Source: Drancourtella massiliensis (lineage in GTDB: Bacteria; Bacillota; Clostridia; Lachnospirales; Lachnospiraceae). Taken from it: a stretch of DNA of 64,000 nt. A program made the translations under genes and the position numbers. The stretch is from NCBI RefSeq assembly GCF_016900655.1, contig NZ_JACJKH010000009.1:1-64000 (forward strand), written 5' to 3'. Below, one piece after another: positions 7,852 through 63,646 of the stretch (position 1 is its first letter; the number at the start of each line of letters is the position of its first letter). The notes beneath the pieces are model-generated. The model was not told the origin of the DNA, searched no databases, and saw only the letters and a program-made list of their open reading frames with translations.

Positions 7852-7896
7852 TTTGATGCTCTGCTTCAGATACAGATATCTGACGATTCGTACATT

Positions 7897-8006
7897 TCTT
7901 CTCTCATCCAGACTGTACTGTCGGTTCCGGAATTGCACCGGATCAGCTGCCAATGGCAGGTCGCGGACTTTCACCGCCGGTTGGGACTTTCACCCGACCC
8001 CGAAGA
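7897..8006 (-). ncRNA. FMN riboswitch (RFN element)
   Basis: The minus strand carries all the conserved RFN blocks in order: TCTTCGGGG, CGGTGAAAGTCCGCGACC, the ATCCGGTGCAATTCCGG segment, CCGACAGT and the closing GGATGAGAGAAGA. The element is about 110 nt with the two ends pairing as P1. It is followed by an intrinsic terminator and then ribU, so FMN binding should shut off riboflavin uptake. Confidence 0.96.
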
Positions 8007-8026
8007 ATTTTTTCCTGTTAACATTT

Positions 8027-39057: not shown

Positions 39058-39107
39058 ACTTGTTTTCCTCCATTTTTACATGTTTTGTTTCATATTGTCT
39101 TTAACTG

Positions 39108-39279
39108 GGGCATACCGTATTTGACGGAATACTGATGTGCCCAGGCATATCCGGTATGTTAAATATGCCCTTTCCGGCAACCTTTGGGTTCATGACTGCC
39201 GGTATTAGAAGCAATATACAATGGCCCATCCTGCGGTGCCTTGTATATTTAAAATAGCGCTACACACCGCCTGGCGTGT
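39108..39279 (-). repeat. Array of five consecutive hairpins in the rpmJ-rpsM spacer
   Basis: In the 274-nt non-coding spacer I can pair: (1) 39108-39113 with 39137-39142, with inner GTATT/AATAC; (2) GGCATAT/ATATGCC at 39144-39169; (3) CCGGCA/TGCCGG at 39174-39202; (4) ATATACAA/TTGTATAT at 39214-39248, with inner GGC/GCC; (5) ACACCGCC/GGCGTGT with a bulge, ending near 39279. No T-runs follow, so these are not terminators. The spacer has no ORF. It may be a structured regulatory or processing region, or an inserted non-coding element. Confidence 0.65.
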
Positions 39280-47231: not shown

Positions 47232-47492
47232 TTATTTCACTTTTTCCATTATTTCCACAAGTCTCCATCTCTTGTCCTTGGACAGCGGTCTTGTTTCCAT
47301 AACTTTTACTTTATCTCCAATGTTGCATTCGTTGTTTTCGTCATGTGCTTTTAATTTGTAAGTTCTCTTCACGATTTTGTTGTAAAGCGGGTGTTTCACA
47401 TGGTCTTCAACTGCAACTACGATTGTTTTGTCCATTTTGTCGCTGACAACCTTACCAACTCTTGTTTTTCTCAGGTTTCTTTCCACGTTCAT
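47232..47492 (-). CDS. rpsQ: Ribosomal protein S17
   Basis: An 86-aa OB-fold 16S-binding protein: [20 protein letters not shown] and the [20 protein letters not shown]-terminus. 7 nt after rpmC. Confidence 0.97.
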
Positions 47493-50734: not shown

Positions 50735-51354
50735 TATGCGTACACCTCCTCGATCGCCTCTACAGCTGCTTTTGTAGCAATCACTGTATTGTATTTCAGG
50801 ATATCATACACATTGATTGTATTAGTGCGTGCAGTCTTAACATCGGCAATGTTTCTTGCAGAAAGCTCAGCCTTTGTGTTGCCGTCTTCTAATACCACTA
50901 ATGCTTTGGATACGTTTAAGTTGCTTAATACATTCTGGAATTTCTTTGTTTTGATTTCATCGAAATTCATTTCATCTACTACGATGAACTTGTTCTCTTC
51001 TACTCTGGATGTCAGAGCGGATTTCAGAGCTGCTCTCTTTTCTTTCTTGTTTAATTTGAAAGAGTAGTCTCTCGGTGTCGGAGCAAATACCACTCCACCG
51101 CCTGTCCACTGCGGAGCTCTTGTTGATCCCTGTCTTGCGTGACCTGTTCCTTTCTGTCTCCACGGTTTTCTTCCGCCGCCGGATACTTCAGAACGAGTCT
51201 TTGCTTTCTGTGTTCCCTGACGTTTATTTGCAAGCTGCTGTACAACTGCCATGTGCACAAGGTGTTCGTTAACTTCAACACCGAAAATAGCATCATTTAA
51301 GTCAATCGTACCAACTTCTTTACCTTCGATATTGTAAACAGCTACGTTTGCCAT
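50734..51354 (-). CDS. rplD: Ribosomal protein L4
   Basis: A 206-aa tunnel protein. Loop block: [21 protein letters not shown] and [22 protein letters not shown]. In E. coli L4 autoregulates the S10 operon; no evidence for that mechanism here beyond the structured leader. Confidence 0.97.
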
Positions 51355-51383
51355 TACTATGTTCCTCCTTTCCTCTCAAAAAC

Positions 51384-52064
51384 CTAAATACTCTTTACTG
51401 TTTCTTTGATTGTTACTAAAGATTTTTTAGGTCCTGGTACGGAACCTTTTACTAAGAGCAGATTGTTTTCTGCATCAACTCTTACTACTTCAAGATTCTG
51501 AATTGTGATCTTCTTGCTTCCCATGTGTCCCGGCATTTTCTTTCCTTTGAATACCTTGCTCGGATCGGAAGCCGCACCGTTGGAACCTGCGTGACGGTGG
51601 AATTTGGAACCGTGTGTCATAGGTCCTCTGTGCTGATTATGTCTCTTGATTGCACCCTGGAATCCTTTACCTTTGGAGATTGCTGTTGCATCTACCTTAT
51701 CTCCTACCGCGAAGATATCAGCTTTGATTTCCTGTGCAAGTGCATATTCTTCTGCATTGTCAAATTTGAATTCTTTTACGAATCTCTTTCCGGATACTCC
51801 AGCTTTGTCGAAGTGTCCTTTCTCAGCTTTTGTCACACCATTTCTGTGGACAATTTCTTTCTTGCCACTCTTGTCAACATTGACAATCTTTTCTTTCTTG
51901 TCAACGAATCCAACCTGAACAGCTTTGTAACCATCGTTCTCAACTGTCTTGATCTGTGTTACAACACAAGGACCAGCCTGAAGAACAGTTACCGGAGTTA
52001 ATACTCCATCTTCGTTGAAGATTTGAGTCATTCCGACTTTTGTTGCTAAAATAGCTTTCTTCAT
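51384..52064 (-). CDS. rplC: Ribosomal protein L3
   Basis: A 226-aa protein. Begins [21 protein letters not shown]; the central block [17 protein letters not shown]-type loop (residues about 140-160) is present. Slightly longer than E. coli L3. Second gene of the operon. Confidence 0.97.
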
Positions 52065-52138
52065 TATGTTTACCTCCTGTGATTTACAGCGGAACGGACA
52101 TGCATCCGTTCATCCTAAATTTTAGGAATACTGCTTTC

Positions 52139-52456
52139 TTATTTTTGTTTCATTTTGATATCGATGTACACACCTGCCGGCATTTCCAGTCTGGATAATG
52201 CATCAACTGTCTTCTGTGTTGGTGTGATGATATCAATCAGTCTTTTATGAGTTCTCTGCTCGAACTGCTCTCTGGAATCTTTGTATTTGTGAACAGCTCT
52301 CAGGATTGTAACTACTTCCTTCTTTGTCGGAAGCGGTACCGGTCCGCTCACCTTTGCTCCATTTTTCTTTACAGTTTCGATAATTTTCTTGGCAGATGCA
52401 TCAACCAGCTGATGATCATATGCCTTCAGTGTGATTCTCATTACTTGACTTGCCAT
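52139..52456 (-). CDS. rpsJ: Ribosomal protein S10
   Basis: A 105-aa S10 (also the NusE transcription factor). Signature: [30 protein letters not shown] and [19 protein letters not shown] 52456 has AGGAGG. First gene of the S10 superoperon. Confidence 0.97.
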
Positions 52457-52683
52457 AAAAAAAGTCGCCTCCTTTTCGTACTTTCAAACTCAGTACGACA
52501 AGCGGTGACTGTACACTCTCCCGTGCGTGTCCACATCGACTCACACGTTGTTACCATGTTTCAATGGATGTTATTGATTCGTACAGTGACTTGTCGCCAG
52601 TTTCCTAACTTGACATTCGCTCCGCGGAAAAACCTGCCATTTCCAGGCAGCAACCTCACGTTTCATCGCTATCATGTCACAGC
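52457..52683 (-). other. Structured 5' leader of the S10 operon
   Basis: A ~227-nt non-coding leader from the start near 52683 to rpsJ. Two elements are visible. A candidate attenuator near the 5' end pairs CTGCC/GGCAG (52634-52650) and is followed by GTTTTT. A long-range stem pairs 52581-52596 with 52496-52514 (CGACAAG/CTTGTCG and ACTGTAC/GTACAGT, with a small internal loop). A third short stem, CGTACT/AGTACG, precedes the rpsJ ribosome binding site. Together they suggest leader-mediated control of ribosomal protein synthesis; the ligand is unknown. Confidence 0.6.
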
Positions 52684-52689
52684 TTTTTC

Positions 52690-52718
52690 AGTATATATGA
52701 AACAATATAAATTTGCAA
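52690..52718 (-). promoter_or_regulatory. Promoter of the S10-spc-alpha superoperon
   Basis: Minus strand: -35 TTGCAA (52713-52718), a 17-nt spacer and -10 TATACT (52690-52695). It is the best promoter upstream of rpsJ and predicts the ~227-nt leader. Confidence 0.78.
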
Positions 52719-52856
52719 GCCCTTTTTACATTTTTTTGTATTTTTTTTGATACACGCAGCACGGAACTGAAGCGCGTCTGTGCGACGAGCGCGCATGCGG
52801 GCGGCGGTTCGGCGCGAACAGCAACAATACTTTTTTTACTTTTTTCCGTTAAACTC

Positions 52857-52886
52857 TTGACAGTTTCCTTTTGTTCATGGTATAGT
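52857..52886 (+). promoter_or_regulatory. Strong promoter of the small-RNA candidate
   Basis: -35 TTGACA (52857-52862), an 18-nt spacer and -10 TATAGT (52881-52886). It faces away from the S10 promoter, with about 140 bp between them. The only feature downstream before the terminator at 53071 is the structured unit at 52893-53105. Confidence 0.75.
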
Positions 52887-52892
52887 GATAGC

Positions 52893-53105
52893 GTGTTAGT
52901 ACATTAAAGTACTAAACGATTACATTGTAGTGTCCCTGATATTCCCCCAAAGTATCAGCGACGTCTCCAATTCTTATATACATCCTCTATTTAAGAGATT
53001 CCCCAGTTTTGTATATGTAGAAACTACAATGTAATCAGGAAAACCTCTCAATGACATACCAAAATGAAAGGGCGGATGCGATCGCGTATCCGCCTTTTCA
53101 TTTTC
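52893..53105 (+). ncRNA. Candidate structured small RNA (~205 nt), class undetermined
   Basis: Bounded by a near-consensus promoter and a strong terminator, with no plausible ORF. A 5' hairpin pairs TTAGTAC/GTACTAA (52896-52915). A 14-bp perfect closing stem pairs GATTACATTGTAGT (52918-52931) with ACTACAATGTAATC (53023-53036). Inside it are a CTGATA/TATCAG hairpin and an ATATACA/TGTATAT stem holding CTCT/AGAG. The rod with a large interrupted interior is reminiscent of 6S RNA, but I cannot assign a class from sequence alone. It does not match tmRNA, RNase P, SRP RNA or T-box patterns that I know. Confidence 0.6.
53071..53105. terminator. Bidirectional terminator between the small-RNA candidate and the HExxH gene
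   Basis: GGCGGAT/ATCCGCC stem (53071-53094) enclosing GCGATCGCGT, followed on the plus strand by TTTTCATTTTC. It is flanked on the other side by a run that reads CTTTCATTTTGG on the minus strand, so it can terminate the leftward gene ending at 53113 as well. Confidence 0.85.
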
Positions 53106-53112
53106 TTCTATA

Positions 53113-53958
53113 TTATGCAGGTAACTCTTTCCCCGCAAACCGGGTGTACTTTTCCAACAGTTCCGCGGCCCCCATCGCTGCGATCTCCCGGAGATCATTC
53201 TCTTTCATCATCCATCTCACGAACCGGCATCCCAGATAATAGCCTACATCCGAATAGCCGCAGAAATCGCACCAGTCTCCAAAGAAATCCTGCGTACTTT
53301 CCTCCTGCTCCAGGCGTCTCCCGTATTCCTCCTTAATCATCGGCTCCTGCTCCTGACACCATGCAAGCCATCCATTCTCATCCTGATGGTAATACCTCTC
53401 ATCTTTGCTTAAGATCTGCTCGCATACCATGGCAATTCCCTCCTGCCAGAGCTGGAGCATCGACTGCCTGCTCTGTGTATGCGCCGGGAACTCCAGGTTC
53501 CCGTATATCTCATGCCAGATATGTCCGATCTCATGGTACAAAAGTGCCTTCAGCTTCTCCTCGCTGTCCCAGTTCAGTTCCAGAACCTTTTCCACGCCCA
53601 GCAGAACGACCTTCTTCCCTCCAAGGAACGTCACCCATCCCGCCGCATTGCAAAGTCCCAGATATAAAACAACCGTCACTTCACATTCCTTTTCAAACAG
53701 GACCGGAAGGCGCTCCTGAAGCTCCGCCACAACACGCTCAAACCTGCTGCCAAGATGCCGGATCCGCTCTGGTTCCCCCAGTACTGTCTCAATTACCGGG
53801 AGGACATCCTTTTCAAACTCATACTTTGCCGTATCTTCTTCACAGAGTTTAGGAAGTTCCGGATGGATTGCTCCTGCATAGTCCCGCCATCTTTGCTTGT
53901 CAAAATGAGAATCCGGAAATGTAGAAAGAATCTCCGGAACAGTATTGACTGTTTTCAT
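53113..53958 (-). CDS. Putative zinc metalloprotease (HExxH), function unknown
   Basis: A 281-aa soluble protein. The motif LYHEIGHIWHE (about residue 140-150) is a zincin signature with an additional His, and a Glu-containing helix follows (WQEGIAMVCEQ), which may give the third ligand. It resembles DUF2268-type predicted Zn-dependent proteases in arrangement, but the family is not certain. No signal peptide or membrane segment, so it is probably cytoplasmic. Standing alone between the small-RNA terminator and the S41 gene. Confidence 0.7.
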   Translation of the reverse strand: MKTVNTVPEILSTFPDSHFDKQRWRDYAGAIHPELPKLCEEDTAKYEFEKDVLPVIETVLGEPERIRHLGSRFERVVAELQERLPVLFEKECEVTVVLYLGLCNAAGWVTFLGGKKVVLLGVEKVLELNWDSEEKLKALLYHEIGHIWHEIYGNLEFPAHTQSRQSMLQLWQEGIAMVCEQILSKDERYYHQDENGWLAWCQEQEPMIKEEYGRRLEQEESTQDFFGDWCDFCGYSDVGYYLGCRFVRWMMKENDLREIAAMGAAELLEKYTRFAGKELPA

Positions 53959-54053
53959 ATGCTCCGCCTCCTGTCTTTCATCAAACAGAACGATCTGTTT
54001 CTTCTATTATAATATAGCAAACGGACAGGCGAGGGAGTGCAAGTGGTTTCCGT

Positions 54054-55334
54054 TTATTGCCGGTTCAATAATTCTACTGCTTTATCATACGCATCCTCTG
54101 ATGATGTCTGGACATCCGGCACAAGCATGTCTTCGTTGTTGGAACTGTCGGGGCGTGTAAACTTTTTGTATGAAACCGACATAACTAAACCCGAATTTTC
54201 TAATTGAAACATCAAAATATCACCATAGGAATTCGGCTTATTAGTGCTTGGTTCTCCGACAATTTTTCCCAATTTTCCGTCTCTCACCCAAACACAAAGC
54301 ATCGTTGCCGAACTAAATGTGATATGATCAGACAGGACAATCAACTGAACATCCTCATTCGCTTTAGCCATGAGTGTCGATCCCTTTGTTTCAATTATTC
54401 CGTGATCTATTGGAACTCCTCCCTGTTCTTTCGCTTCTTTGGAAAATCTGATAACACTTCCATAGTAAGGCTCCCTCATTCCCATTGCTTCCAAAATCCT
54501 TAAGCAAGCATTCGAGTCCCCTCCCATATTCCCCCGTACATCAATAATGACTTTCGTACATCCATTTTCCACTGCTTCTTCCAGTTTTACCGCAATTTCT
54601 TCCAGTGTCTGATCAACTTCACAGGTATTGAAATCTACCACAAAAATATCACCTTCAGTAAAACAATTGTTTGTCACTTCTTCGGTGGATCTACCAACTT
54701 CCATAAAGGAGTAGATCCGTTTTGTGCCATCCGAGAATTCTACCTCTACCTGATCATTCTTCGATACCGCTCCACAGAATTTTAGAATCGTGTTCACTGC
54801 AAGATACTTTTCTCTGTTCTGTTCTTCTGCTGCTGCATTCTCCGCCACGATCATTTTATCGATTTTTTCGTATATTTTCTCTACATCCACTCCTCCAACT
54901 TTTTCTACATAAAGCCCGGTCCTTTTCCCATTTTCCCACAGATATGATTTTCCGTTTTCATAAGAAGCAGGTATGTCTAATACTTTTATTTCTCCAGGAT
55001 CCTGAATCCTTGTATGTGCATCGCGAAGAGAACTCATGTACTCTGCCGTTGCTCCCCAGAATTCCCAGACAGTCATACCCGACTGTGTCTGACTGATGTA
55101 TGCTTTTTTCGCTTCCTTATATTCCGACTGATCTTCCTCCAATTCAAAGAACGGATGTACATCTTCCACATATTGAATCGCCTGTTTCCTGTCTTCCTCC
55201 ACCTGTGTTTTAGTCAGCAGACCTCCTTCTTCCGATATTGCCGTCCCCTGCCATGCACATCCTGCAAGCACTGCCGTCATCGCAAAAGCCAGTACCGCCT
55301 CAATCCACTTCTTTTTAAATCTCCAAAATTTCAT
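54054..55334 (-). CDS. S41-family peptidase, lipoprotein
   Basis: A 426-aa protein with an N-terminal hydrophobic segment ending in the lipobox LAGC (Cys about residue 26), so it is probably tethered to the outer face of the membrane. The C-terminal half shows the S41 tail-specific protease core: KVIIDVRGNMGGDSNACLRIL, IVLSDHITFSSATM (with the likely catalytic Ser) and KIVGEPSTNKPNSYGD. I chose ATG 55334 with AGGAGG. A PDZ domain is not obvious. Its neighbour upstream (55364-56464) is another lipoprotein, 29 nt away, so the two are probably co-transcribed. Confidence 0.83.
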   Translation of the reverse strand: MKFWRFKKKWIEAVLAFAMTAVLAGCAWQGTAISEEGGLLTKTQVEEDRKQAIQYVEDVHPFFELEEDQSEYKEAKKAYISQTQSGMTVWEFWGATAEYMSSLRDAHTRIQDPGEIKVLDIPASYENGKSYLWENGKRTGLYVEKVGGVDVEKIYEKIDKMIVAENAAAEEQNREKYLAVNTILKFCGAVSKNDQVEVEFSDGTKRIYSFMEVGRSTEEVTNNCFTEGDIFVVDFNTCEVDQTLEEIAVKLEEAVENGCTKVIIDVRGNMGGDSNACLRILEAMGMREPYYGSVIRFSKEAKEQGGVPIDHGIIETKGSTLMAKANEDVQLIVLSDHITFSSATMLCVWVRDGKLGKIVGEPSTNKPNSYGDILMFQLENSGLVMSVSYKKFTRPDSSNNEDMLVPDVQTSSEDAYDKAVELLNRQ

Positions 55335-55363
55335 AGACAATTTCCTCCTGCCAGCACTTCCAC

Positions 55364-59369: not shown

Positions 59370-59834
59370 CTATCGTTTTCGCATTTTCAGTTTCAGCATT
59401 GCCGTTGCTTTTCGTGCATCCATGGTGTCTACCGCATTTTCGCCGACCACGTCGGTCTCTACGCCCTTTGGATTTTTATTCATATCAACAATCGTATCCA
59501 TATACGGATTGGTCACCACGAACTGTCCGGCCGTTCCGGAAAAGTGGATTCCCACCACCGGAATGTCGCGTTTTCCGAGCTGTTCGATTGTATTGGCATA
59601 ATCGACATCGCTGTTTCCCCATCCGTCTGCAGAGATGATCACGCCGTCCGCGCGCATTCCTTCCGCCCAGACTGCCGCCCTGGTTCCCACCAGCACTTTG
59701 TCCTGCTGATCCTGTGGTGTTCCTACGATAAGAATTCCCATCAGATCCAGATCCTCATCGACTGACACTACATCCAGAAGCGGATCACGGAAGTTGTGAA
59801 GTGTTGTTTCTTTTGTCGAAGGTCCGATTCCCAT
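59370..59834 (-). CDS. prdE: Proline reductase cluster protein PrdE (PrdA C-terminal-like)
   Basis: A 154-aa protein that aligns with the PrdA segment just after its processing site: PrdE begins MGIGPSTKET where PrdA has CIGPASKEM after Thr414. Shared blocks include LDLMGILIVGTPQ (PrdA LDLCGVLFVGSPQ), GWGNSDVDYA and QLGKRDIPVVGIHF. It lacks the Cys that becomes the pyruvoyl group. The exact role is unknown; it may be a structural partner of PrdD. 27 nt after prdD, with AAGGGG as ribosome binding site. Confidence 0.9.
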   Translation of the reverse strand: MGIGPSTKETTLHNFRDPLLDVVSVDEDLDLMGILIVGTPQDQQDKVLVGTRAAVWAEGMRADGVIISADGWGNSDVDYANTIEQLGKRDIPVVGIHFSGTAGQFVVTNPYMDTIVDMNKNPKGVETDVVGENAVDTMDARKATAMLKLKMRKR

Positions 59835-59861
59835 TCTTTGTCACCCCTTTTCGTTCTTTTT

Positions 59862-60632
59862 CTACTGCATGGACCGCAGAATACCGTCCCGGTATTCGTT
59901 TGGTGTTACAAGGACCGGCATATTTCCCATATCAATGATGGAGCGTCCTCCTTCCACGCCTGATGGTTCTTTTGCGAAGAGATGCATGTCATACATAGCT
60001 CCCTGCCCGGCCACCTGTTTGATAATGAGTACTTTTTTCTTTCCCGGACGTACCACATCGTAATATTCGTGACGTTCTGTGCAGCGGTCCCCATGAAATT
60101 TCTTCAGCTGTTCCCGGAGTTCCTGGACAAATTCATCACATGCGCTGTGTGCCGCCGTTACCCCTGCCCGGATCTGACCCATTCCTTCCTGAAGCGTCAC
60201 ATCAAAGGCAATCATGATATCTCCTTCTCCTGGCGTCCCGGCTCTTCCGTAACAGATCTGCTCCTTCAGGTTTCCTTCCGAGGATCCGAATTCATGTGTC
60301 TGCTTTCCTACAGTATCCACGCCTGTCAGGATCACATAGACACCTGTCAGCGTATGAGTAATTCCTTCCCCGATATTTCCAAGTACTTTCGCTGAAATCG
60401 GGATAATGTCCATAATCGTATTGGTATACTGATCACGTTCTTCCGGTTTGATAATCCGGAAAGAAATATCTGATATATAGTCTTCTTTTCCACGTTTGTA
60501 GCGGTCTGCGCTCTCTTTATTCACAGTCAGCACGCCGCTTTCCTCCACCTTGTTCTCCTCGCCCCACATAGCTTCCCGTATGTGGTAGGCTTTAATCACA
60601 AGCCGGCGGAGCTGTTTTGTCTCTTCTCCCAT
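59862..60632 (-). CDS. prdD: Proline reductase cluster protein PrdD (PrdA N-terminal-like)
   Basis: A 256-aa protein that aligns with the middle of PrdA (about residues 168-413): shared blocks are TNTIMDIIPISAKVLGNIGEGIT, GVDTVGKQTHEFGSSEGNL, HPGKKK-type PGKKKVLIIKQVAGQGAM and NMPVLVTPNEYRDG. It ends at the residue just before the PrdA processing Cys. I chose ATG 60632 because AAAGGAA is at usable spacing; an in-frame ATG 45 nt upstream is alternative. Probably forms a PrdA-like complex with PrdE without pyruvoyl chemistry (inference). Confidence 0.9.
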   Translation of the reverse strand: MGEETKQLRRLVIKAYHIREAMWGEENKVEESGVLTVNKESADRYKRGKEDYISDISFRIIKPEERDQYTNTIMDIIPISAKVLGNIGEGITHTLTGVYVILTGVDTVGKQTHEFGSSEGNLKEQICYGRAGTPGEGDIMIAFDVTLQEGMGQIRAGVTAAHSACDEFVQELREQLKKFHGDRCTERHEYYDVVRPGKKKVLIIKQVAGQGAMYDMHLFAKEPSGVEGGRSIIDMGNMPVLVTPNEYRDGILRSMQ

Positions 60633-60703
60633 GGCATTTGATTCCTTTCCTGTTGATCCTTTTTTATCATAACACACTTTGCACTTTCAGAAAATGATAT
60701 TTG

Positions 60704-60747
60704 ATTTTCAAATGAAAATAGGGATCTGTACACTCTGTACAGATCCC
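60704..60747 (-). terminator. Terminator-like double hairpin between prdB and prdD
   Basis: An 11-bp perfect stem (GGGATCTGTAC 60721-60731/GTACAGATCCC 60737-60747, 5-nt loop), followed on the minus strand by TATTTTCATTTG. A second small stem (ATTTTC/GAAAAT, 60704-60719) comes next. It lies 14 nt past the prdB stop and would reduce readthrough into prdD. Confidence 0.7.
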
Positions 60748-60760
60748 ATAATGATTTGCA

Positions 60761-61486
60761 TCAAACTTTTGCAATGTATTCAAATGGAAGCGGAACTACC
60801 TTTCCTGGAGTATCGATTGCAACGAGCTGCTCCAGAGTTGCTTTTACAATCTCTGTCTGCATTTCTACGTTGTTCGGTTCTCCGGCATTTGCTCCCATTG
60901 GTACGAGCGGTGCTACCGCACGTGGTGTACCTGCCTGACGAACAACAGGTGGAAGGGCTGCGATGATAATTGTAGGAATACCAGCCTCTTCAATCGCTCT
61001 CTGCACCAGTACTGCAGAGCGGTGGCAGGTACCTCATCCAGCTGTGAGGATGACTGCGTCGACATCCTCTTCTTTAAACATCTGTGCGATGGCCGGACCA
61101 GTTTCATGTTTGAATTTCTCCTGATTTCCACCGCCGCCCATGAATCCTGCGTGTACCGGAGCACATGCTCTGATAAATCCTTCTTTTGCAAGTTCATGGA
61201 TTCTGTCGATCGGGAACATACAGTTGATGTCTTTGTTTACATCACCGTTATCATATCCACCATGTGAAACCATCAGTTCACTGGATGGAGTTGTATTTTC
61301 AATCTTTCTCCATGTGAAGTCTCCGGCAAGATTAAATCTTTCCTGGCTTTTCTTATGGACACCTGCTGCAGTAGCAAGAGCAATAGACATATCTTTAATC
61401 TCTTTTGTTACTGGAGTCCATACTGCCGGCGGAGTAATCGGAACATAAATTTCAGATTGTAAACCTTTCACAACCGTTAAGCTCAT
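60761..61486 (-). CDS. prdB: D-proline reductase subunit PrdB, selenocysteine-containing
   Basis: A 241-aa catalytic subunit of D-proline reductase (about 26 kDa). The frame is interrupted by one in-frame UGA at 61034-61036, which I read as Sec151, in the motif G-U-G-T-C-H (UxxC). The frame continues without any other stop to 60761, and the downstream residues (VQRAIEEAGIPTIIIAALPPV) are PrdB-like. A SECIS-like hairpin follows the UGA (60999-61019). The enzyme reduces D-proline to 5-aminovalerate with the PrdA pyruvoyl group. ATG overlaps the stop of the upstream gene (ATGA). Confidence 0.95.
60999..61019 (-). promoter_or_regulatory. Bacterial SECIS-like hairpin of prdB
   Basis: On the mRNA, a perfect 7-bp stem CTCUGCA/UGCAGAG encloses the 7-nt loop GUACUGG. 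The stem begins 14 nt after the UGA and the loop is about 21-27 nt downstream, inside the range used by bacterial SelB. The loop carries a G-U start, as in known bacterial SECIS elements. Confidence 0.75.
61034..61036 (-). other. In-frame UGA read as selenocysteine (Sec151 of PrdB)
   Basis: Codon 151 of prdB. On the plus strand it reads tca at 61034-61036. The context Gly-Sec-Gly-Thr-Cys gives a UxxC redox pair matching the known active site of PrdB. Confidence 0.93.
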
Positions 61487-61795: not shown

Positions 61796-63646
61796 TTAAT
61801 CGTATTTTTCTTTTCTCTTCTGGCTCATCGGGAGAGACTGCTCATTTGCAACGAGATCAATCTTTGTTCCTGTTGCCTTTTCGATCATCTCGATGTTGTT
61901 TGCCTTGACATTCGGATTCCATTTCTTTTCTGCCGGTTTTACTTCCTCGCCTGCCATTGCTGCTTTCAGCATTGCGATTGCACGTACTGCTTCTTCTTTA
62001 CACAGTGTGTTGCATGCAAGAACTTCATTTTCGATACCGGATTCAGATTTATTGTTGTCAACCATGTTTGTCATATACGGATTTCCAACAACGAGTGCAC
62101 CCTGTACAGCACAGAAAGATAATCCAACTACCGGGATTCCTCTCTTTCCGATCTGCTCATGATGACTTGCAAAATCAATGTGGTTATTTCCAAAGCCTTC
62201 TGTTGTGATAAATGCACCGTCAACATCCAGAGCTTCTACTGTCTGTCCGACACGTTTGGATACATAGAACTTCTCTGCGTTGATCTGCGGGCTTCCTACG
62301 AAAAGAACGCCGCAGAGGTCAAGCTCTTCGTCATGGAGTGCTTCCAGTACGAGAGGCTCTCTCCAGTAGTGTCTGGACATCTCTTTGGATGCAGGTCCGA
62401 TACATGTCAGTGCATGGATACATCCATCAAGCACTTCCAGCGGAGATGTCATAACCGGAACGTTTCCAAGGTCTACATTTGGTTTCGCTCCAAGTACTCC
62501 TACCGGCTCCATTGGAAGGATCAGGTTATCATGCATAGCGCCCTGTCCCATGATCTCTTTTACGATGACTACTTTTTTCTTTCCAGGATGTCTGAGATGT
62601 TCAAACTCCTCTGTATCAACAACAAGTGAGTCGTCCAGTTTCTTAAGGGCTTCACGGATCTCCTGTGTGATCACGTCTGTCGCTGTATGTGCAGCGAGCG
62701 GGCCCGGACGCTCCATGTTTGTTCCTTCTTTGATGATCACTTCTGTCTTGATGAAGATCTCACCCTTATCCGGTGCTCCCGGACGTCCCCACATGATGTT
62801 CTCATCCAGGTATCCTTCGGAAGAACCGAACTCACCGATCTGAACGCCGTTTGCATCTGTACCTGTTACCATCATAACAACGCCGTCAAGTACACGTGTT
62901 ACACCATTTCCGATTTCAGCTTCGCCTTCTTTTGTGGCAATCGGCTGTACGTCCATGATTGTGTTGGAGTATGTGTGGTACATCTCCGGTGTGATAATAT
63001 CAATCTTTAAGCTGTTTACCAGTTCCTGGCCTGCAGCTGCTTCTTCTTCGATTCCTTCACGGATGTAAAGCACTGTTCCGTCGATCTTTGTCTCCGGTCC
63101 TCTCTTTACTTCAGTGATTTTGAAATGCTTTCTTGTGAGTGTTCCCATCACTCTTGCTTCTTTTTCTTCTGCTGCCGGTGCCGCTGCTACTGCCACCGGA
63201 GCCGGTGCTGCTGCTACTGCAGAGCCTCCCATGATGCCAACCGGGATTTCCAGATTGATATCTTTTCCTTCTCCGATATGGAGTTTAAATACTCCACCCG
63301 GTACTGCTGCCGGTGCCGGAGCCGGCACTTCCGGCTGAACTGCCGGTGCTTCTTCTTCAGCTGTTTCTTCTTTTACCGGTTCTTCCGCAGAAGCTTCTTT
63401 GTATCCTTCTACGACATCCGGTGTAAGTGCTGTAAGTGAATCACATGTTTTTTTCAGTTTTGCACCAAGAACCTGTTCAATCGTAAGGACGCCTTCCAGA
63501 TTCAGAAGTCCTGAATCTACCAGATCATCAAAGATCGCCGGATCCTCAAGATTTGCAGCTTCGATTGTGATGCCCTCTTCCGCCCTGCAGCAAAGCACGG
63601 CCGGATCTTTTGCATGAGCTTTCGCTGTTTCAGCTGTAATTGACAT
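61796..63646 (-). CDS. prdA: D-proline reductase proprotein PrdA
   Basis: A 616-aa proprotein. The enzyme reductively opens D-proline to 5-aminovalerate as the Stickland electron acceptor. The N-terminal 80 residues (PAVLCCRAEEGITIEAANLEDPAIFDDL-type start, GAKLKKTCDSLTALTP) are followed by an Ala/Pro/Glu-rich linker (about 85-165) and then the conserved body. Self-cleavage occurs at Thr414-Cys415 in ALTCIGPASKE, by analogy with Clostridium sticklandii, giving the pyruvoyl-bearing chain. The ribosome binding site is AAGGAGGG. First gene of the visible operon. Confidence 0.95.
   Translation of the reverse strand: MSITAETAKAHAKDPAVLCCRAEEGITIEAANLEDPAIFDDLVDSGLLNLEGVLTIEQVLGAKLKKTCDSLTALTPDVVEGYKEASAEEPVKEETAEEEAPAVQPEVPAPAPAAVPGGVFKLHIGEGKDINLEIPVGIMGGSAVAAAPAPVAVAAAPAAEEKEARVMGTLTRKHFKITEVKRGPETKIDGTVLYIREGIEEEAAAGQELVNSLKIDIITPEMYHTYSNTIMDVQPIATKEGEAEIGNGVTRVLDGVVMMVTGTDANGVQIGEFGSSEGYLDENIMWGRPGAPDKGEIFIKTEVIIKEGTNMERPGPLAAHTATDVITQEIREALKKLDDSLVVDTEEFEHLRHPGKKKVVIVKEIMGQGAMHDNLILPMEPVGVLGAKPNVDLGNVPVMTSPLEVLDGCIHALTCIGPASKEMSRHYWREPLVLEALHDEELDLCGVLFVGSPQINAEKFYVSKRVGQTVEALDVDGAFITTEGFGNNHIDFASHHEQIGKRGIPVVGLSFCAVQGALVVGNPYMTNMVDNNKSESGIENEVLACNTLCKEEAVRAIAMLKAAMAGEEVKPAEKKWNPNVKANNIEMIEKATGTKIDLVANEQSLPMSQKRKEKYD

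Follow-up and report, generated by a model that had tools for sequence, protein, structure and literature searches.

A conserved, structured small RNA encoded beside the S10 and proline reductase operons of Lachnospiraceae

The window, by which we mean the whole 64,000-nucleotide stretch of Drancourtella massiliensis DNA that was analysed, carries on its plus strand a gene for a structured and conserved small RNA, beside the S10 ribosomal operon and the operon of proline reductase (prd). The features of this region are the following.

52139-52456, minus strand: rpsJ of the S10 operon, with its start at 52456
52591-52674, strand opposite to the small RNA: S10-Clostridia leader (RF03136), from Rfam
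52857-52886, plus strand: promoter TTGACA-18-TATAGT with an extended -10 (TG), 11 of 12 consensus matches
52893-53105, plus strand: predicted small RNA transcript, its start taken from the promoter and its end from the terminator
52896-52915, plus strand: small 5' hairpin TTAGTAC-ATTAAA-GTACTAA, from the fold; also in Sellimonas caecigallum (L093)
52918-52931, plus strand: 5' arm of the closing stem P1, 14 bp and perfect, from sequence and fold, with covariation in the family
52932-52962, plus strand: hairpin P2 with loop L2 (CCCCCAA, 52944-52950), from the fold, with covariation in the family
52963-52970, plus strand: single-stranded linker J23, GTCTCCAA, from the fold; family consensus ACTCCAATT
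52971-53022, plus strand: P3 arm (TATATAC/GTATATG) with a small inner hairpin and the single-stranded L3b, ATTCCCCAGTTT, at 52998-53009, from the fold and the family alignment
53023-53036, plus strand: 3' arm of P1, from sequence and fold
53042-53062, plus strand: 3' box, AACCTCTCAATGACATACCAA, of which the inner 18 nt recur unchanged in all 31 covariance-model genomes
53061-53104, plus strand: stem of an intrinsic terminator, from a terminator scan
59376-60818, strand not given: PrdD/E, by profile match
61037-61486, minus strand: prdB ORF, with an in-frame stop after 150 aa and about 90 open codons beyond
61799-63646, minus strand: prdA (D-proline reductase proprotein), a candidate target with the ribosome-binding site AAGGAGGGAATG; TIGR04480, 997.3 bits at 61883-63637

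The in-frame stop of prdB is presumably the selenocysteine codon expected of PrdB. Between the RNA and the prd genes, 53113-55340 encodes a 281-aa protein without a Pfam match and an S41 peptidase. Elsewhere in the window, Rfam places an FMN riboswitch at 7892-8011, an S4-Clostridia leader at 39100-39174 and two tRNA genes at 267-459, all on the minus strand.

A first-pass annotation, made from the letters of the window, had read this unit as a well-delimited candidate for a small RNA gene, divergent from the S10 operon and bounded by a near-consensus promoter and a strong terminator. Each of these elements was confirmed, with rpsJ on the opposite strand, and the gene itself is now strongly supported by conservation and covariation as well as by promoter and terminator. 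The promoter stands out from its surroundings: the other five promoter-like sites within 51000-55000 have nine matches each, and shuffled sequences average 7.0 sites with at least nine. The accompanying claim that the unit lacks ORFs has to be reworded. Overlapping ORFs do exist, but those found, such as 53051-53239 (plus strand), continue through the terminator, and the frame opened by the ATG of the 3' box is anywhere from 4 to 318 codons long across 61 related loci; hence nothing in the unit looks coding, and a peptide starting at this ATG was rejected on the same frame lengths. A promoter and a terminator of its own, without coding sequence, are features of trans-acting base-pairing small RNAs.

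The RNA is predicted to fold far more stably than expected from its composition (-73.3 kcal/mol, against -33.6 +/- 4.4 in shuffles; z = -9.06), and none of 200 dinucleotide shuffles was as stable. The perfect 14-bp closing stem noticed at first reading pairs 52918-52931 with 53023-53036. The rod-like shape with a large interrupted interior that was described along with it holds as regards the stem, but the interior consists of the hairpins P2 and P3, with C-rich loops, inside P1, and not of a bubble of the 6S type. Many relatives have a longer leader in place of the small 5' hairpin. Of the 40 bases of 52918-53042 left unpaired in the predicted fold, 15 are C, 12 T, 11 A and 2 G; conservation within the family is among the highest at the loops UUUCCCCCAAGA, ACUCCAAUU and CAUUCCCCAGCUUU and in the 3' box. 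Accessible C-rich single strands, present here in the predicted fold and with conserved loops, are likewise a feature of trans-acting base-pairing RNAs.

Covariation strongly supports the stem P1 and the hairpin P2, which carry nearly all of it. In an alignment of 67 matches (59 distinct sequences) to the covariance model, paired cells amounted to 94.7%, against 89.0% in shuffles, two-sided changes occurred in 21 of 36 pairs, against 10.4, and the covariation score was 0.256, against 0.150; none of 500 shuffles came as high on any of five measures, although the alignment, being fitted to the model, leans towards it, and near-copy relatives make shuffle tests that ignore relatedness lenient. 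Versions of the structure slid along the alignment scored 0.040-0.069 and reached none of the five measures, and an unfitted alignment of 18 sequences (MAFFT and RNAalifold) gave nine pairs with two-sided changes. Both sides changed in 6 of the 14 pairs of P1 and in 14 of the 15 of P2. In P3, which varies little and which two relatives of one genus lack, this was so for one pair of seven. It had been proposed to judge the gene by its covariation and synteny across Lachnospiraceae, and both were found.

The family to which this RNA belongs is almost certainly real. A DNA search recovered it in 4 of 61 genomes, the window's included, and in none of 24 genomes from other families of the order. 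Among 397 genomes of the window's family, the 18-nt box occurs with at most two mismatches in 47 and exactly, once each, in 31. A covariance model (R1), built from 18 sequences (A3) and trained without the window, finds a single copy in each of the same 31 genomes and gives the window 98.3 bits; the agreement between model and box is partly built in, because the training sequences of R1 carried the box. When a collection of 84,980 species genomes was scanned for exact copies of the 21-nt box, 61 loci came up, of which 50 are Lachnospiraceae by their NCBI names (Dorea, Faecalicatena, Coprococcus comes, Hespellia, Sellimonas, Muricomes and others), seven are named for other families (Ruminococcus 3, Mordavella 2, Clostridium 1, Eubacterium 1) and four have no family. 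Three of these last eleven (L045, L067 and L073) match genomes placed in the window's own family (G354, G378 and G239), and outdated labels may thus account for the odd names. An order-wide draw found the RNA in 2 of 295 genomes, both of the window's genus, and says little of other families, because the missing genomes that appear in its list, 20 in number, all come from the window's family. Among viral contigs, none carried the 21-nt box.

The family is new, as is its tie to the interval between S10 and prd. A search with Infernal against Rfam 15, RF00013 included, had been suggested at the outset; it placed no family on the RNA stretch at the gathering score. Up to E = 10, 52700-53200 gave eight weak matches to seven families; two of these families, the L20 leader and SurA, were set aside, as their alignments rest on the terminator stem. 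On the loci of 12 relatives, Rfam recognized three S10 leaders alone and no family on the RNA, and for the RNA of one relative it returned nothing at E < 5. RsaE/RoxS, considered as a sequence family, was rejected, with no Rfam family at the gathering score in the window stretch or the 12 relatives' loci. Strings of the RNA sequence occur in the main text of no paper searched (bioRxiv preprints, figures and supplements lay outside the search), and none of the titles returned by our literature searches on this subject concerns small RNAs of Lachnospiraceae. The passages of PMC8040213 at hand do not mention the RNA, which its supplementary tables may list.

The promoter is kept along with the RNA. 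A match of the window's type lies upstream in 60 of the 61 exact-scan loci; the remaining locus has just 47 nt ahead of the box, and the L084 match, 364 nt upstream, is doubtful. In these 60 loci the -35 element reads TTGACA (48) or TTGACG (10) and the -10 element TATATT (40) or TATAGT (17), the spacer is 17 nt in 58 and 18 in two, and TG precedes the -10 element in all. A promoter score of 11.2 was reached by 53 of the 57 loci with enough upstream DNA for this control, against 7 of 1140 shuffled upstream stretches. At the other end, 59 of the 61 relatives have a terminator-like hairpin. The leader between promoter and P1 is more variable (below 35 nt in 15 of 57 loci, 35-69 nt in 12 and at least 70 nt in 30). 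In 20 of 60 relatives it contains a hairpin followed by a T-run, often GGCGGTTTCC...GGAAACTGCC, which looks as if synthesis of the RNA were gated by attenuation there; the short leader of the window has none. L089, L049 (by eye), L073 and L043 are examples of such a hairpin and T-run between the promoter and the RNA core.

To describe the neighbourhood, we took up to 20 kb of DNA surrounding the RNA gene from each of the 31 genomes. Genes of the S10 operon lie near it in 25 and prd genes in 26 (within about 10 kb), both in 20, and a TauE-type permease gene in 17; of the six loci that lack S10, two extend less than 1.4 kb on that side. The box has prdE or prdD within 1 kb in 18 of the 31. Relative to the RNA, S10 is divergent in 18 cases and co-directional in 7, and prd is convergent in 22 and co-directional upstream in 4. 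That the RNA faces either way with respect to both operons argues against a UTR or leader, and a cis-acting element of this kind, for which a fixed orientation was expected, was rejected. Of the 397 genomes, 42 have a PrdA above its cut-off, among them 27 of the 31 that bear the RNA. In the other four (G061, G163, G216 and G235) the RNA is still within 4 kb of S10 genes; G235 is 68% complete, and G163 and G216 are nearly complete. Since two nearly complete genomes thus keep the RNA without prdA, prdA cannot be its sole target. The RNA was also sought near prd in stretches from nine of the 15 prd genomes without a model match, with nothing convincing beyond a two-mismatch relic of the 3' box beside prdE in G166 (L008, 1488-1520; E = 0.13); a tenth stretch (L143) came from G002, which does not count as a prd genome at the cut-off.

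We compared the pairing of five C-rich segments with that of 60 shuffled segments each, in 602 ribosome-binding regions drawn from the 31 loci. Already for the 416 unassigned genes, J23, L3a and the box pair more strongly than most of their shuffled versions, because C-rich segments match any Shine-Dalgarno sequence. Among 45 segment comparisons with named genes, the real segment was surpassed by one shuffle of 60 for PrdA with L2, TauE with J23 and PrdD with L3a, and by none for PrdC with the box. The sequence that sets some sites apart lies outside the core: the motif GGAGGGA, picked post hoc after the loci had been viewed, is present in the ribosome-binding region of 16 of 23 PrdA and 11 of 20 TauE genes, against 15 of 416 unassigned genes and 1 of 143 other named genes together. 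When the 57 ribosome-binding regions of the window are ranked, prdA ties with 47235-47492 as the best for L2 (-12.0 kcal/mol) and comes 31st for J23, 33rd for L3a, 24th for L3b and 30th for the box. The prdB ORF is the best of the 57 for the 3' box, but with five segments and five prd genes one first place is no surprise.

The contrast between genomes with and without the RNA is suggestive for prdA. GGAGGGA precedes prdA in 20 of 27 RNA-bearing genomes and in none of 15 prd genomes that lack the RNA (Fisher p = 2e-6, relatedness ignored). The seven RNA-bearing exceptions depend on a scripted choice of start; in G001, which has two prdA-like starts, the first was used and lacks the motif, and the second has it. 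The PrdA tree contains three to four supported independent pairs, three of them within the near clade, of which about three agree with the contrast and none opposes it (median p = 0.25), so that the contrast is not significant once relatedness is allowed for. With a motif chosen post hoc and this median p, the prdA contrast is therefore a lead, not proof.

The TauE-type permease, often located on the other side, is a second candidate target in relatives; in the window's genome no homologue of it reaches E <= 1e-20. Its ribosome-binding site contains CTGGAGG in 10 of 20 genes, against 1 of 416 unassigned genes, and TTGGAG in 5 of 20, against 2 of 416. Near prd this site is unusually conserved, close to AATCTGGAGGGATG in several species (for example L149, L150, L167 and L172). 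The match does not follow the RNA everywhere: the TauE site of G210, which lacks the RNA, would pair well with L2 (-15.1), that of the RNA-less G166 is kept as CTGGAGGGATG, and in G321 (L014, L164) the linker J23 is mismatched to the genome's own TauE site.

We favour, with somewhat more belief than doubt, a trans-acting small regulatory RNA of a family absent from Rfam 15 that pairs with ribosome-binding sites; this is the likeliest reading of the locus. A strong promoter of the housekeeping type would direct the synthesis of an RNA of about 210 nt, in which P1 and the two hairpins would hold C-rich, nearly G-free segments single-stranded: the loop UUCCCCC in P2, the linker CUCCAAUU, CAUUCCCCAG in P3 and the 21-nt 3' box with ACCUCUCAAUGACAUACC. 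The RNA probably acts by pairing of these segments with G-rich ribosome-binding sites, which would lower, or retune, translation. The best candidate message is prdA, of the Stickland electron-sink operon of proline reductase; that it is a direct target is a tentative proposal, about which we are more doubtful than confident. If the pairing reading is right, targets other than prdA must exist, because some genomes keep the RNA without prdA.

Other explanations share part of this evidence. The resemblance to 6S RNA noted in the first-pass annotation was not upheld. A closing stem, a size of about 200 nt, a strong promoter and a single copy per genome would suit an RNA polymerase-binding 6S RNA, be it divergent or a second one, but 52700-53200 contains no 6S match up to E = 10, the genome's sole 6S match over the Rfam cut-off of 46.4 lies on another contig (C14:45783-45965, 51.9 bits), P1 encloses two hairpins where a 6S RNA would have a large central single-stranded bubble, and the C-rich loops are conserved, all of which makes this highly improbable. 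An element acting locally, by interference of a divergent promoter or convergent transcript with S10 or prd, or as an antisense 3' RNA of prd, would account for the retention of S10 in 25 and of prd in 26 of the 31 genomes within about 10 kb. Yet the orientation varies against both operons, prd lies about 6 kb from the RNA in the window and more than 9 kb in G331, the RNA persists in four genomes without prdA, and conservation extends to the loops rather than to the promoter alone; we hold such local action to be improbable, if less so than a 6S RNA.

The more serious rival, doubtful but possible in our view, is an RNA that binds or sequesters a protein, in which the repeated UUCCCC loops and the invariant 3' box would be recognized by an RNA-binding protein, making it a sponge or a scaffold of a ribonucleoprotein. 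All 31 genomes found by the model, itself trained on box-bearing sequences, carry the 18-nt box without a change; this is stiffer than pairing with several messages requires, and no conserved near-perfect partner of the box is apparent in the 397 family genomes. A near-perfect antisense target of the box was accordingly rejected: besides the 31 RNA genes there are just 20 scattered places with one or two mismatches, and a reversed control pattern also finds matches. Against protein binding, the neighbouring prdA and TauE genes are enriched for matching sites, and loops rich in C and poor in G usually signal that an RNA pairs with ribosome-binding sites, as in small RNAs of the RoxS/RsaE type.

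Lachnospiraceae rank with the commonest commensals of the gut, proline reductase serves as an electron sink, and commensals are thought to compete with Clostridioides difficile over proline fermentation. At its boldest, the pairing reading would make this RNA the first riboregulator dedicated to proline reduction in the Stickland pathway: highly expressed in gut Lachnospiraceae, it would adjust translation of the selenoprotein-dependent proline reductase and of the permease next to it to the growth state that the ribosomal operon alongside reports, and in relatives its synthesis would be gated by the leader terminator. We regard this full scheme as unlikely. The family is strongly conserved, single-copy and syntenic, yields a covariance model that can be used for annotation, and points to a testable link between a small RNA and proline fermentation.

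Several known systems resemble this RNA in part. The raiA-motif/ModT RNA, as presented in the available part of PMC11706538, is also a conserved, structured non-coding RNA of Clostridia; the RNA of the window differs from it in matching no Rfam family. The S10-Clostridia leader (RF03136) adjoins the small RNA gene but lies on the other strand, as a cis element of the S10 operon, and the small RNA is outside it. 6S RNA (RF00013) shares its size class, closing stem and single copy per genome, and differs by its central bubble and by a covariance model that the RNA of the window does not match. RsaE and RoxS of the Bacilli differ in size and fold, and the targets here are candidates and the window RNA has no Rfam match; they are nevertheless alike in being stand-alone RNAs with single-stranded C-rich motifs, set in a context of redox and energy metabolism.
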